Assembly (NCBI RefSeq): GCF_019649055.1
Contig: NW_026570250.1
Coordinates: forward strand, 1 to 64,000
Reading direction: 5' to 3'
Length of the DNA: 64,000 nucleotides
From: Paramacrobiotus metropolitanus
Taxonomy: Eukaryota; Tardigrada; Eutardigrada; Parachela; Macrobiotidae
Position numbers and translations under genes: made by a program. Below the pieces are notes generated by a model. It was not told the origin of the DNA. It was given only the letters and a program-made list of their open reading frames with translations, and did not search any database. Shown piece after piece: positions 31,200 through 41,300 of the stretch (position 1 is the first letter of the stretch; each line of letters opens with the position of its first letter).

Positions 31200-31206
31200 T
31201 ATATAT
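31200..31206 (+). promoter_or_regulatory. Probable TATA box of the CAHS gene
   Basis: TATATAC within CATATATATACAC lies about 130 bp upstream of the CAHS start codon. This would place transcription start near 31230 and give a leader of about 100 nt. It is the only strong TATA-like element close to the gene. Confidence 0.5.
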
Positions 31207-31331
31207 ACACTAAGACTTTCCCTCCGAAATCATAATTCTGACAAACTAAATCTCTCTGAGCTACTTAGTTACGAATCTTACTTGCAACATTTAAGTAATT
31301 ATCTTTCTTCTGAATCTTGCGATATACAATC

Positions 31332-32162
31332 ATGACTACAGTCGAGAAGAAAGTCGTCGAAAAAGTGGAAGTGCGCACTACCGGCAACGCTGTCCCACCA
31401 GTGTGCTCCAACGTGACATGCACCACCGTATGTGATCCCAAATGCACGGAACGCCATGAACACCATCACCATTCCGGAGTAGCCTGCAATACAGTGTGTG
31501 CTCCCGCCTGCACCGAACGCCACGAACACCATCAGCACCACCATCACGAACACGATCGGACCTGTGAAACTCACGAGCACTCTACAAACTACACCCACAC
31601 CGAGGTCAAAGCGCCCGTTCTCAACCCGCCGGCGCCTTTCGTTGTCACATCCGCTTCCGGATTAGCCGAGGAGATCGTCTCCGAAGGATTCAGCGCATCG
31701 GCCGCCCGAGTCGCGGGAGAAGCGACGGCCACAGCGGTATGCGAGACGGCCGCCTCTTCGAAGCAGGCGGCGGTGGATCGCGAACGCTACGAACGGGAGA
31801 AGGCCGCCATTGCGCGTCAACACGAGAAGGAGCTGGAAAAGAAGACCGAAAGCTACCGCAAGCAGGCCGAGGCTGAAGCCGAAAAGATCCGCAAGGAACT
31901 GGAGAAGCAGCATGCTCGCGATGTGGAATTCCGCAAGGACATCCTGGAGACCACCATCGACCGTCAGAAAAAAGAAGTAGAACTCGAGGCCAAGATGGCT
32001 AAGAAGGAACTGGAGCACGAACGACAACTTGCCCTGGAAGCTCTGGAGCGCTCCAAGATGGCCACCAACATTGAGGTCAATTTTGAGTCGGCCGCCGGGC
32101 GCACGGTGTCCGAAGGCACGGTGGTGTCGGAGCATACGGACATCGTCCATCCCAGGATGTAA
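31332..32162 (+). CDS. CAHS: Cytosolic abundant heat-soluble (CAHS) protein with a Cys/His-rich N-terminal extension
   Basis: This is a 276-residue single-exon gene starting at ATG 31332, after a TATA box and leader. CAHS proteins are tardigrade disordered proteins that form gels or filaments in the cytosol and protect cells during desiccation. The C-terminal two thirds (about 149-262) is the family's charged helical region, with [20 protein letters not shown] and the end motif [15 protein letters not shown]. The stretch at 86-133 (THTEVKAP, then [11 protein letters not shown]) is also typical of the family. Residues 25-78 are unusual. They hold eight cysteines and a tandem 22-residue repeat with the pattern C-x3-C-x3-C-x3-H followed by His runs (C30/C34/C38/H42 and C52/C56/C60/H64). 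A ninth Cys is at 137. Metal binding or redox cross-linking is inference. An in-frame TTG at 31317 is not a plausible start. Confidence 0.95.
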
Positions 32163-32311: not shown

Positions 32312-32317
32312 AATAAA
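32312..32317 (+). terminator. Polyadenylation signal of the CAHS gene
   Basis: The sequence is AATAAA, 150 nt after the CAHS stop codon, in an AT-rich stretch. It is the first canonical hexamer after the gene. Confidence 0.6.
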
Positions 32318-34385: not shown

Positions 34386-35021
34386 TTAAATAGTTTCTTC
34401 CACAATCTTCGAGTACATCTTAATCTTCGAAGCTGTTGACATATCCACATAGCGGTCACCTACACTGACCACCATTCCACCAATAATGTTCGGATCCACT
34501 TTCGTCTCGACCTTCAGCTTCTGTCCCTTTTTGGCAAAATTCTGCAGGGCCGAATTCAAATTCTTTCGCTGACTCTCATCCAGTTCCTTAGCCGTGGTGA
34601 CAACAGCCAGCACTTCTCCGCGTGCAGCGCTCATAATGTTACCGAACGTCTTCATAAACTTGGGCAAAAGGGATAAGCGACCGTTATCACTCATAGCGGA
34701 GAACACATTGAGTGTTAAGGGATTCAAGTTGTGCTCGCGAGCCAGACTCTGCAGCATTCCCTGCTTGTCCTGCTTAGAAACGATAGGATTTTTCAGTGCA
34801 TCAGCAACGCGGGCGTTCTGCTGAAATAGCTCGCCCATCAAATTTATATCCCGCTCCACATGATCCAGTTGGTTTTCCTTGGAGGCAGCTGAAAACAACG
34901 CCGTCGCATATCGACCATCAATGCCAAAGACCTGAATGGGAGGACGCACAAGCTGCTGCTGCTGCTGGTTAACTGCAGCACTTGTGGCTAATTTCCGAAT
35001 GGCCATGCGCAAGGAGGCCAT
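34386..35021 (-). CDS. ATP5PO: Mitochondrial ATP synthase subunit O (OSCP)
   Basis: This 211-residue protein is close to the 213 of the human subunit. OSCP sits on top of the F1 head and joins it to the peripheral stalk of the mitochondrial ATP synthase. The N-terminus (MASLRMAIRKLATSAAV) is an Arg/Ser/Ala-rich mitochondrial presequence. The helical core begins at PPIQVFGIDGRYATALFSAA, the classic OSCP opening. The C-terminal part carries the family signature (VDPNIIGGMVVSVGDRYVDMS). The whole coding region is one exon. The ATG at 35021 is preferred over an upstream in-frame start because a splice acceptor lies directly upstream (AG at 35025-35026), with a matching donor at 35078. This gives a 54-nt intron in the 5' leader. 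The gene is divergent from the V-ATPase gene. Confidence 0.95.
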   Translation of the reverse strand: MASLRMAIRKLATSAAVNQQQQQLVRPPIQVFGIDGRYATALFSAASKENQLDHVERDINLMGELFQQNARVADALKNPIVSKQDKQGMLQSLAREHNLNPLTLNVFSAMSDNGRLSLLPKFMKTFGNIMSAARGEVLAVVTTAKELDESQRKNLNSALQNFAKKGQKLKVETKVDPNIIGGMVVSVGDRYVDMSTASKIKMYSKIVEETI

Positions 35022-35024
35022 TTT

Positions 35025-35078
35025 CTGTAAAAGCCCCAACGTAACGCATAAGTCATACACACTTGAACAAAAACTTAC
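35025..35078 (-). other. Intron in the 5' leader of the OSCP gene
   Basis: On the minus strand, GTAAGT follows a CG exon end at 35079, and TTTTACAG precedes AAAATGG. The 54-nt length is near the short end of the introns seen in the other genes here. Inferred from sequence only. Confidence 0.6.
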
Positions 35079-35079
35079 C

Positions 35080-35625
35080 GAATAATTGTAGGAAAACCCA
35101 AATAATTAACAACCCTAATAGTAAATTCTTTTGACTTTTCACAATTGATACACAGCCTTACAGGCCCTCGCTTTAAAAAATCCGAAAAGCGATTTATTTC
35201 TGTGCGCCCTGGCAAATCGCAGTCCATGTCGCACAGCTGGTGCGTAGAACGCACCTGCGCAGTGCGCGTTATGCACGGTTCAGTTATTCATATTCCAGAC
35301 TCTTGGACCGGGTTGTACATCCCGTCGGTGTGAAGCGTTCGCTTTGGGCTTCCACGTTCTTCCCCCATCAAAGTATTGATCGTTTGGTGGCTTATCATGC
35401 GCAGCTTTACGGAAACACAAGACATTTGCAGCAAATGATTTGCTGTTTGTGTTCCATCCTGCGGAATAATTTCCTCCCTTTTTGTGGACTCGTTCCCTTC
35501 TTGCGAAGCTCGGCGAGGACATGGTTTTGGGATAGCGTGTAGAAAACCATATTTTCCTGTATCGTGGACGAATTTCTCTATACGTCTTTAATCTTTCGAT
35601 TTGATTGAAAGATTCCACCAGCAAG
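35080..35625. promoter_or_regulatory. Divergent promoter region between OSCP and V-ATPase c''
   Basis: The two genes are head to head, with about 600 bp between start codons (35021 and 35626). The leader exon of OSCP begins somewhere above 35079. A GC-rich patch (CTGCGCAGTGCGCG at about 35250-35265) resembles, but does not match exactly, the NRF-1 type palindrome found in promoters of respiratory genes. Long open frames on the minus strand here are antisense and lack family resemblance. Confidence 0.45.
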
Positions 35626-37068
35626 ATGGGTGCAGGATCCGCAATCAGTTTGATGATTCTGTTATGGGCTGCCATATTTGTTGCTTTGGGTAAGTGCTTT
35701 TGGAACTCGTTCCAGAGCAATTTTCTGACGCGATTTCTCGCAGGTGTGTATTACTGTCTTTCCGGACAAGGGCAGCGAATCGACTTTGGATGGTATGTTA
35801 TCACCGTCCTAAGCTTATGACCAAATTTAATGTTAATCAGCTAAATGCTGCAGTCCTTCCATTATGATCCATATGTTCTCATTCGTCTCATTTACATTTT
35901 TCGCATTTGTGATTGTTTGCAAGTTTTTGCTGGATGTGAAGTATGCTCTTTGCAGGTTTTTGGCCGGACTTGATCCCCATATTTGGGCTGCCACGGGCGC
36001 TGCTGCTGCAATCTCGCTCTCGGTTCTTGGCGCTGCATGGTAAGTTAATGTTTTTGAATTTTGCGAGTTTTTTTTAGCTCGATGCTGTTGATTTTTTTGG
36101 TTACTCGAAGTGCAGCAACGGAGTTTTAGCGCATGTATTTAGAAGTTTTCCAAATTATTTAGGGGTATTTTCTCCACGGGCTCGTCGATCATCGGTGGTG
36201 GTGTGAAGGCTCCCAGAATCAAGACCAAGAATTTAGTCAGCATCATCTTCTGCGAAGCCGTTGCTATTTATGGGATTATTATAGCCATTGTCATCACAAA
36301 TCTGATCGAAGTGAGTGGGAAAGCGCCTGCATTACTTATACCAGTCGTAATCGTTTATTTAAAAATAAGTACACTCAGTATAGCTTGTGATGGTCACGCG
36401 CTGTGAGCCTGTGACAGCACACATTCTGAGCAGAGTATTCACGATTGAGATTTACTGACAGCAATTTAGGAACAGTATTAGGAACAAGATGATAGTTTAT
36501 TCAAATTATGTACAAATTACCTGAAAATTTCGTTGCTTTGTTCCGTACTCTACGCCAGCCGTCTTTTCGCAGGACTTCAAGCTCAGCCAACTAAACTTCA
36601 AAACATTGTCCGATACCGTGCGTGCTGGCTACGCCTTATTTGGCGCTGGTTTGACAGTGGGATTCTGTAATGTTTTTTGTGGCATTGCCGTGGGAGTTGT
36701 TGGATCGGGTGCAGCACTGGCCGATGCCCAGAATCCCTCCCTCTTCGTCAAAATTCTCATTGTGGAGATTTTCGCATCGGCCATTGGGTTATTCGGCGTA
36801 ATCGTCAGCATCATTCAAGTAAGGAAAATTCTGCGGTCTTGCACTAGTGCGTACACTTTGTTGTTCGACTTATTATGCTATATACCGCTACCATCAGTTC
36901 TGGCTTTCCACCATGTGGCCTGTACGATAATTTTGGTAGAGCATATCATGCTGGTTGCAGTTCTTGCGTATTGCAACTTAGACGGAAGACTAGATAATTC
37001 CTTGCAAGAATTTGAAGCGGAAAATTGTCTTTCAGGTTTCCGGTGTGAGAATGGGAGTTAAAGGCTAA
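35626..37068 (+). CDS. ATP6V0B: V-type proton ATPase 21 kDa proteolipid subunit c''
   Basis: The protein has 207 residues from six exons: 35626-35689, 35744-35792, 35956-36039, 36163-36310, 36573-36818 and 37036-37068. The phases agree at each junction and all introns are GT-AG. This subunit is part of the membrane rotor ring that carries protons through the vacuolar ATPase in lysosomes and endosomes. Five hydrophobic segments are visible. The proton-carrying glutamate lies in [11 protein letters not shown] (Glu97), and a second membrane glutamate is in [11 protein letters not shown] (Glu180). Glycine-rich helix faces appear in [13 protein letters not shown] and [16 protein letters not shown]. 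The ending [10 protein letters not shown] is short, as in animal homologues (about 205 residues). The length and motifs separate it from the 155-residue subunit c. Confidence 0.95.
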
Positions 37069-38373: not shown

Positions 38374-41300
38374 TCATGAAGAAGACGGGGCTGAAATTTA
38401 TGGAACAGACCTTAGGTAACTCCCGCGCAACCCAACAAACCATTCCCACAGGTGTGATTATGTTATGACAATTTGTAAAATTTTGCACTTACGATCCTCA
38501 TTAGGCGATTCCTGGTCCTGGCTGGATTCTGGCTGTCCTTCGATTCCCGAACCGCCGCCCGGACTGACACCACCCAGACCAACGCCAGGAATAGAGGGGT
38601 GATGTAGAGGTGTGTAATGCTGCATGGATAGACTGTGTTGAAAATTGGAGAGTAGCGGACCAATACCATACATTGCTGCTGCTGCTGCTTGTAACGACTG
38701 CTGATGCTGCTGTTGTTGGTAAAGAGCGAGAGAGGGGGCCGAGAGAGGTGAGGTTGTCTGCCTTTTCACAGATGCTGCTAAGCCATGAAAGACCTGAAAA
38801 AACAACTTCGCTAATCCGGCAGAACGTCGCATGCACTCGCCAAGCTGAGCGATGACCGGAAACGGAGATACAGAACATGTTCCGGCTTAAAAAATTCTAC
38901 TGGAAAATGCTTCCAAACAGTTCCATAATCTCGTATGCAACTTCAAACTAGCTTGTTAGTACGTCTTACAGTGATTTCCTACAGACTAAATAAATTCATA
39001 TGAAACAAAGATATTAAACTATAATAACAACGATAAAAATCAAATCTTATGTGAAGCATTCCCTTGATGACCGAGCAAAGCAGGATTTACAACATACACT
39101 ACAGCTCAGCAGTGATAATTACTCTCAAGAATTGCACAAAAAACAACAAATGCAATAATGCAACAACCAACCAGCTCATTGTCCTGCTCATAGGAGGCTT
39201 TCCTTTTCAAGCCCTTTTGCCCTTGCGAGACAAAATCGGACCAGCCAGCAGCGGCCAAGGCATTCAACGACGGGGTTATAGCTGCAGCGGTGGCAGCCTG
39301 GTTGACAGCGGACGAATGCGCATAAACAGACGGCAGAGAAGCAGCAGCGGCGGCCTGCATTTGCGCTTGGACCTGCTGAGTAGCCGCCGCCATGAGAGCG
39401 GCCATCGCCTGCTTCTGATTGAGCATAGCAGCGGCAGCCAACAACGGTGAGGCGGAAACAGCCTGCGCAGCCATCGCCGCCTGAAAGGCCTGCTCATACT
39501 CTGAATTATTGCCCATTGAGGGAGCAGCGGCAGCAGCCACGTTAACCGGCACGGATACGGCGGCTGGAAGAGCCACGGGCACTGGTACGGCAGCCACGCT
39601 AGCAGCACTGGGCGCATAAACATTAAGGCCAAGAGCAGCATTAGCGGCAACAGCACTGCTACTGTTACCGGTAGCCTAGATAATGGGGAGAAAAGAAGAA
39701 TAGCCGTGTGTAAGCAACAAGCGGACAAATGTACACATAATCACAATCAAACACAAAACACTCGCTAAACATCCAATTATCAACAGCAAAACATGCTCAA
39801 CAAGCGGAGATGAGACGCTATAACGGTCCTACATTAATTAGACCCTTTCAGCGAAGAATGTTCACATCCAGTTCGATCAATCAATGGAAACGCACTGAAC
39901 TTACCGGTGTATTCACAGATTGGCGAGATTTCAGTTGCTGCACGAGGTGGGCCGGTGGGTGGAAATAACGACAAGCGTCCCGCCCGCATTTCCCTAACGT
40001 GCCGAAATTGACGCGTTAACCCACGAGAATCAGTTAATTTCATAACGTGAGACATATGCTCCGTCAAACCCCGTCACCGGAGATCACCGCCTTACCTTTC
40101 AGAGAGTCCATGCATACAACAACCATATTATCAGTAACTTGCACATGCTCAGCCGGATGAGCATATTTGCATTCTTGCTCGGATCGCCGGCAAGAACCCC
40201 GCGAAAACTCGCGACACACTTCCAGTCTGTCCATTCGACTTTTACTACCGGAGTGCTGTTGCTGTTGTTGCTGCTGCTGTTGCATCTGTTGCTGCAGCAG
40301 TGAGCTGGTCAAATTGGACATGGACGTGCTCGCCGATGTCGTGTCGGAATGACTGGATCCCGACGGGCCCGGACTGGATGCCGAAGCTAAAAATGCAGGT
40401 GTAGAACCAAGATAAGCGTTGGCGCCGGTGGAGAAGGCGGGATTATAATAAGGTGCCATAAGGGAAAGCTGAGGCTGCATTTGCAGTTGGGGTTGCAAGG
40501 CGATGGACTGCATCTGCATCTGCTGTACAAGAATGTTCTTCATAGCTAAATGATTTCGTCCATTAATAAGCAGTTGATCTTTCAGGTGCTGCGGTGGATG
40601 GTAGTATTTGCAAGGAGGATTTTCACGATTACAGCGTCCCTGCAAACAACACACTCATATTTAACCGGCGAAAAATGCACTGAAAAACTAACGGTATAGC
40701 ATCAATTTCAAAATAAGTTTCACGTTTATCGTATCAAATAGGCACAATTACATAAGGTTTGCGTCATATGAAATAATCGAAAACAACACGTATCATATCT
40801 GGATTAACTATCACTCGCCCTATCGGATAAAGTACAGGTGTGTCGTGCCCGGCAATAAGCGAATTCTGTCACATTTTCAGAATTCCTGGCAATAATAAAC
40901 CTAATACGGTAGTTAACGAAGGCCTTTATAGTCAGATTTGCTCTAACGATAAGAATTAAAATCTATGGATACAAGGTATACAACGGAAAATATATGTTCC
41001 AGTAAAAAGCTAGCATTTTTATCGTACAACAGTAAGTACTGGGTAATTATTATACCGTGCAAGTCATCAAGGTCAAGGTAGCAATCTTGCACCGCTTCTA
41101 CGGTTCTACCATAATTTTGGTTAAATTGCATAAATTCACAAATTCGCACCATACAAACTTTCAATTTTCGAAAGCTCAAAAATCGCTGTTTGTGCCATAC
41201 CTAAGATTAAGCTTAAAATTACTAATGCGCCCTTCCACAGAATTGGAATTAATAAGAATGTAAATTGTAAAAACACAAACTGCGTGCATACAATAAAAGC

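Follow-up and report, generated by a model that had tools for sequence, protein, structure and literature searches.

The cytoplasmic abundant heat soluble (CAHS) proteins have been studied as desiccation gels that are triggered by water loss. According to the available part of PMC9592077, 10 motifs are found among 40 CAHS proteins of three species, and filament formation is tied to the conserved C-terminal region; the tails differ strongly among 39 CAHS proteins of three species, as described in the accessible text of PMC12776492. The published count for Paramacrobiotus metropolitanus is 16 CAHS genes; repeated histidine substitutions are reported at a single site of the CAHS core, A201 of CAHS1, not in the tail (PMC13006486, available portion). 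Beyond this family, metal binding is reported for dehydrins, e.g., the disordered, His-bearing CaDHN from Cerastium, which binds Fe3+, Co2+, Ni2+, Cu2+ and Zn2+ (PMC9102250, in the part available), and CuCOR15 from citrus, which binds Zn2+, a property in which His dipeptides are implicated (PMC8961592, likewise in part). Neither PMC9592077 nor PMC10799326 uses the words “cysteine” or “histidine” in its main text, and “cysteine”, “histidine” and “metal” are all absent from PMC7640644. Among the titles and abstract openings listed in a literature search that reached few subscription papers and no supplementary sequence lists, none concerns a Cys/His array in a CAHS protein, and such an array may already have been published.

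The CAHS gene analyzed here (31332..32162, plus strand) comes from the first 64,000 nucleotides of contig NW_026570250.1 of P. metropolitanus (hereinafter, the window). It is a single-exon open reading frame of 276 amino acids plus the stop codon, without introns and open throughout, with homology to CAHS 94063. Residues 140-247 align without gaps with PDB entry 9rkp (CAHS 94063, which we take to be a protein from H. exemplaris) with E=3.8e-38, confirming the CAHS identity that had been proposed in a sequence-only reading of this DNA. In an AlphaFold2 single-sequence model of the protein (mean pLDDT 66.7, pTM 0.35), the CAHS core is a long helix (residues 122-254; 31695..32093, plus strand) in which the ten-residue blocks within 151-240 average pLDDT 96-99, with both ends lower, and the tail up to residue 120 has block means of 38-58, so that it is predicted to be unstructured. 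The protein thus contains a conserved central and C-terminal helical core (read from the sequence, with the helix predicted) preceded by a variable disordered N-terminal tail (from the pLDDT of the model and the comparison of tails presented below), two of the features by which CAHS proteins are recognized, besides heat solubility, high abundance and the formation of gels or filaments on drying; judged by its sequence, it is an ordinary member of the family outside the Cys/His module. Against Pfam-A, the whole protein has no match up to E=1. In the genome (169,799,020 bases in 533 contigs), the same query yields 20 matches, its own place counted, that group into 15 loci. The GC content of the open reading frame is 58%, compared with 34-38% in the 1-kb flanks. 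The window gene and the paralog C4b (L002, C4:1315020-1315637) are uninterrupted where C18, C75, C73, C114 and C9 appear to be split by introns; intron loss or retroposition is a possible origin of this state.

The distinguishing part of this protein is a Cys/His-rich module at residues 25-78 (31404..31565, plus strand; 8 Cys, 13 His). The in-frame translation of this interval is exactly residues 25-78 of the 276-aa open reading frame, and the description given in the sequence-only reading, namely, eight Cys with two 22-residue copies of C-x3-C-x3-C-x3-H followed by a His run, is exact by translation. The cysteines occupy positions 25, 30, 34, 38, 52, 56, 60 and 78, the 13 histidines span residues 42 to 74, and a ninth Cys of the protein, at position 137, lies outside the module. 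The two motifs, C30-x3-C34-x3-C38-x3-H42 and C52-x3-C56-x3-C60-x3-H64, are 22 residues apart and belong to unit 1 (residues 28-49, 22 aa; 31413..31478, plus strand) and unit 2 (residues 50-71, 22 aa; 31479..31544, plus strand), respectively. When residues 24-84 are shuffled 200,000 times, at least one motif appears in 2.0% of the shuffles and at least two in 0.0015%; the best 20-residue internal match has 15 identical residues, a score that residues 20-84 never attain in 5,000 shuffles. The DNA of the two units is identical in 46 of 66 bases. The His codons of the module are a mixture of CAC and CAT, so that the module is not a pure trinucleotide expansion; recent triplet slippage is rejected in view of these mixed codons, the number of shared bases and the divergence of silent sites. 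Further downstream, a stretch of the tail common to paralogs (residues 86-110, 25 aa; 31587..31661, plus strand) has matches at C73 and C4, and similar sequences are present also in exons of C114, C18 and C9. In the structural model, the tail contains two weak short strands, 28-34 and 52-58, with block pLDDT of 51-58 there. An arrangement of the cysteines as a stripe on a helix (i, i+4, i+8) is unsupported, given that the model has weak strands in these positions, at a pLDDT of just 51-58. We infer that the CAHS core is a normal one to which the Cys/His array has been added.

Comparison of the two units at 20 aligned codons (28-47 against 50-69) shows that 8.5 of 12.3 silent sites differ (pS 0.69) but only 6.5 of 47.7 replacement sites (pN 0.14), an excess of silent over replacement change with a one-sided Fisher p=0.0004 on rounded counts. 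The dS of 1.88 is so high that it is a rough value only, and the dN of 0.15 and the dN/dS of 0.08 are biased low by the choice of 20 codons for protein likeness, the ratio being unable to say which constraint acts. Five amino acids differ between the units (T29/A51, T31/N53, D35/A57, K37/A59 and H46/Q68), four of these in spacer residues and the other being H46/Q68; all three Cys and the motif-ending His of each unit are identical. Because the silent sites are near saturation and yet the register of the cysteines is intact, the doubled array looks, as judged from its codons, old and selectively maintained; this combination is hard to explain without selection. An old duplication leads to the prediction that related species carry the array as well.

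The N-terminal tails were compared for 11 CAHS genes of the genome, with the window gene counted and C9 partial. Four loci fall outside this count, namely, the divergent C25 and the fragments C15, C50 and C73:137051, to which no tail is assigned, and given the published count (16; available text of PMC13006486), some CAHS genes may be absent from the comparison. The window tail contains 8 Cys, C75 contains 3, C18 contains 2, and C73 and C4c contain 1 each; the tails of C114, C9, C4a, C4b, C60 and C58 (6 of 11) are Cys-free. Histidine accounts for 15% of the window tail, 9-14% in C73, C18, C114 and C4a, and 2-6% in the other six, so that five of the 11 tails, the window gene among them, contain at least 9% His. 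Smaller Cys/His clusters are present within the first 30 residues of C18 (L024; VCQEKHTHTEKC) and C75 (L019; VCRGGAYCPPNCAYH), with the spacing C8-x3-H-x-H-x3-C18 in the former (tail sequence MEHKTTVCQEKHTHTEKCRMESHGH) and C14-x5-C20-x3-C24-x2-H in the latter (tail sequence MSSRVERHMEAEVCRGGAYCPPNCAYHNRN). Unlike the window array, these clusters contain only 2 and 3 Cys and are unrepeated, and the likeness seen is one of clustering. A repeated Cys/His unit occurs in the window gene only among the 11 tails. The earlier assertion that CAHS proteins contain few Cys and have no module of this kind holds, among these 11 tails, for the doubled array but is too broad with respect to Cys, which five of the 11 tails contain; similarly, the absence of any Cys/His module elsewhere fits the six Cys-free tails but not the two paralogs with smaller clusters or the five tails with at least 9% His. 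Because two paralogs carry such clusters, the window gene, at the level of sequence, is the extreme of a trend of Cys/His clustering that recurs in CAHS tails.

With the 94-aa tail (residues 17-110) as query, the genome yields four matches at E<=10, namely, its own place, one in C73 and two in C4, and the three non-self matches are all at CAHS loci already found with the whole protein. These three matches begin at query residues 58, 66 and 49; the Cys of the array are at query positions 9-44 and the last Cys of the module is at 62. With this query no second copy of the doubled array is detected in the genome, where low-complexity filtering could mask some copies. On viral contigs, 15 stretches fit a pattern and none of them encodes a relative. 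In a tree of the CAHS cores (13 rows), C75, with 3 Cys in its tail, pairs with C114, with none, at a support of 100/99, and therefore Cys appear to have been gained and lost among the tails; the window gene is unplaced in this tree, in which five of the 10 inner branches are without resolution.

Several other features of the paralogs merit mention. The C75 tail (L019 2443-3162) consists of 185 aa, with a Gln-rich repeat, EMRRDSAGSRQQQQ, before the usual HTEIRAPL stretch. C18 (L024), C4b (L002), C73 (L012) and C9 (L017) start with MEH, MEH, M|SQH and M|SHH, respectively, so that the third residue of all four mature chains is probably His, which would create an ATCUN-like site for Cu or Ni. This reading follows from the ATCUN Cu/Ni motif and the rule for Met removal, and N-terminal acetylation would abolish such a site. 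C15 (L020), C50 (L021) and C73:137051 (L018) are decayed-looking CAHS-like fragments with divergent cores, and stops are found inside the CAHS-like matches of C15 and C73, on which introns may bear; the decayed fragments suggest birth-and-death turnover of the family. C25 (L006) encodes 533 aa with a CAHS-like C-terminal core of 37% identity, contains no Cys and has a branch of about 1.2 in the tree; it is possibly the same kind of outlier as the PmCAHS89226-like protein described in the available part of PMC12776492.

Upstream of the window gene, TATATATA (31200..31207, plus strand) is a possible TATA box 132 bases before the ATG, and AATAAA (32312..32317, plus strand), about 150 bases past the stop, is a possible polyadenylation signal; both are consensus matches only and, as such, fit a complete gene. 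The 1 kb upstream contains further TATA-like sites, with 3.4 expected by shuffle. Two metal-response elements are found in the same interval, a number reached by 8 of 200 shuffles, and there are three each upstream of the Cys-free paralogs C9 and C4b, so that these elements are rejected as a special mark of the window gene. Antioxidant and heat-shock elements are not found within 1 kb upstream. Most of the region 3287-29549 of the window is occupied by a long tandem satellite (periods near 51, 101, 133, 234 and 367 bases), the end of which lies some 1.8 kb before the CAHS gene. The neighboring genes on the other side encode the ATP synthase OSCP (34386-35102, minus strand), an ATP synthase c-type subunit (36525-37058, plus strand), a CCCH zinc-finger protein that is muscleblind-like by eye (40064-40651, minus strand) and an exon of peptidase C54 (45480-45872, minus strand).

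By analogy with the metal-binding dehydrins, we give an even chance to the possibility that this protein combines a normal gel- or filament-forming helical CAHS core with a disordered N-terminal tail that would serve as a transition-metal-binding arm. In each unit, the three thiolates and one imidazole of C-x3-C-x3-C-x3-H would provide one tetrahedral site for Zn2+ (or Cu+), and the His runs after the motifs could add weaker sites for Zn, Cu or Ni; to our knowledge, C-x3-C-x3-C-x3-H is no known zinc-finger spacing. Since the predicted unstructured tail is joined to helix 122-254, the ligands could fold round a metal. Such an arm, in the cytosol, would buffer metals while the volume decreases and curb radical chemistry driven by them, and metal sites shared between tails might tie adjacent filaments; on oxidation, the tail thiols could form reversible disulfides, with release of the metal. 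Metal binding, cross-linking, redox switching and a role in drying are all functions that we infer for the tail and that it may have by analogy; metal binding or disulfide cross-linking by the module is plausible on the same grounds. A more specific version, under which the protein would represent a subclass of metal- and redox-switched CAHS gelators, with Zn2+ held by two Cys3His sites per chain in the wet state and an oxidative burst during tun formation freeing the metal and linking filaments through the tails until this is undone on rehydration, appears quite unlikely. If it is true, part of the reversible cysteine oxidation on which tun formation depends would have the CAHS network itself as its target.

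CCCH zinc fingers follow the spacing C-x4-15-C-x4-6-C-x3-H, and small Tim proteins carry twin CX3C pairs that lie 11-16 residues apart. Recruitment of a structured domain, be it an RNA-binding CCCH zinc finger, a twin CX3C of the small-Tim type or a C_tripleX repeat, seems highly improbable for this tail. C34-x3-C38-x13-C52-x3-C56 satisfies the twin CX3C with its 11-16 spacing, a pattern that occurs once in the tail, starting at residue 34, and the C-x3-C-x13-C-x3-C is common to the small Tim chaperones, but the window units have an extra Cys, Pro and poly-His and no Pfam match. C25-x8-C34-x3-C38-x3-H42 is one step short of a CCCH finger, whereas the strict pattern has no match in the 109-residue tail, and Pfam searches give no CCCH or small-Tim match with either the protein (up to E=1) or the module (E<=10, where the HMMER filters discard most matches above about 0.1). 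The sole Pfam match listed for the 54-aa module is PF02363, C_tripleX (E=0.4), which, by its name and by this weak match, has spacing of the C-x3-C-x3-C type; however, at 11.4 bits the module stays below the curated cut-off of 22.9 bits, and C_tripleX finds no match in the genome at E<=10, a weak test in that the window module is missed too. The low-confidence model of the tail, with just two short strands, does not favor a structured domain either. A recruited Pfam domain was accordingly rejected, there being no match up to E=1 and a sub-threshold C_tripleX only, with none in the genome.

A redox cross-linker, in which inter-chain disulfides, formed as the cell becomes oxidised on drying, would stiffen the CAHS gel and be reduced on rehydration, metal binding being incidental, is a possible alternative to the metal-binding arm, albeit on the unlikely side. 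Reversible cysteine oxidation is required for tun formation in H. exemplaris, but this oxidation has no stated tie to CAHS, which the available text of PMC10793892 names once, in the Introduction. Thiol blocking lowers survival of osmotic stress by 38% but leaves survival of anoxia and high g unchanged (PMC13228310, available part), and a single Cys is enough to dimerise the disordered dehydrin CaDHN, although the Cys-free mutant beat the wild type under H2O2 and cold, the wild type being better in heat (PMC9102250, available part). Eight Cys on a flexible tail would be multivalent; however, disulfides need neither a fixed C-x3 spacing nor dense His runs, and the cytosol is normally reducing. 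Alternatively, composition might be all that matters: in fast-evolving, often His-rich tails, the Cys array would be a tolerated local expansion, or the His runs would provide charge that responds to pH or membranes. The intact Cys register at near-saturated silent sites and the occurrence of two motif copies in just 0.0015% of composition-preserving shuffles make this account unlikely, even though tails vary strongly among CAHS proteins (39 in the available text of PMC12776492; 11 here), the number of Cys is labile, with C75 (3 Cys) next to C114 (0 Cys) at 100/99, and His dipeptides matter to membrane binding of the dehydrin Lti30 (PMC8961592, in part).

Thus, in the protein that the window gene encodes, a Cys/His array that looks old and constrained might give the CAHS gel a second input, metal or redox, and the tail is a candidate target of the cysteine oxidation reported to be essential for tun formation. 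Even if the metal-binding arm does no more than buffer metals, the tails of the CAHS genes in this genome make up a natural series, their Cys numbering 8, 3, 2, 1 and 0. Compared with CAHS 94063, the window protein shares the core, gap-free at residues 140-247, and the predicted long helix; the solved chain of PDB 9rkp is the core alone, 110 residues, whereas the window protein has the doubled Cys/His array of the tail besides. Pfam has a dehydrin model that covers the K-segment; the window protein, which matches nothing in Pfam up to E=1, has no match to it, and the dehydrins are an unrelated family. The window protein nevertheless has, by sequence and model, the His- and Cys-rich disordered tail that is a dehydrin-like trait. 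Similarly to this tail, CaDHN and CuCOR15 are disordered and His-bearing and belong to a desiccation or stress setting, but the dehydrins bind metal, whereas metal binding by the window tail is a reading of its sequence, and CaDHN has one Cys, which makes disulfide dimers, where the window module has an ordered array of eight. If the window tail does bind metal, a family unrelated to the dehydrins would offer an animal counterpart to these metal-binding plant proteins.
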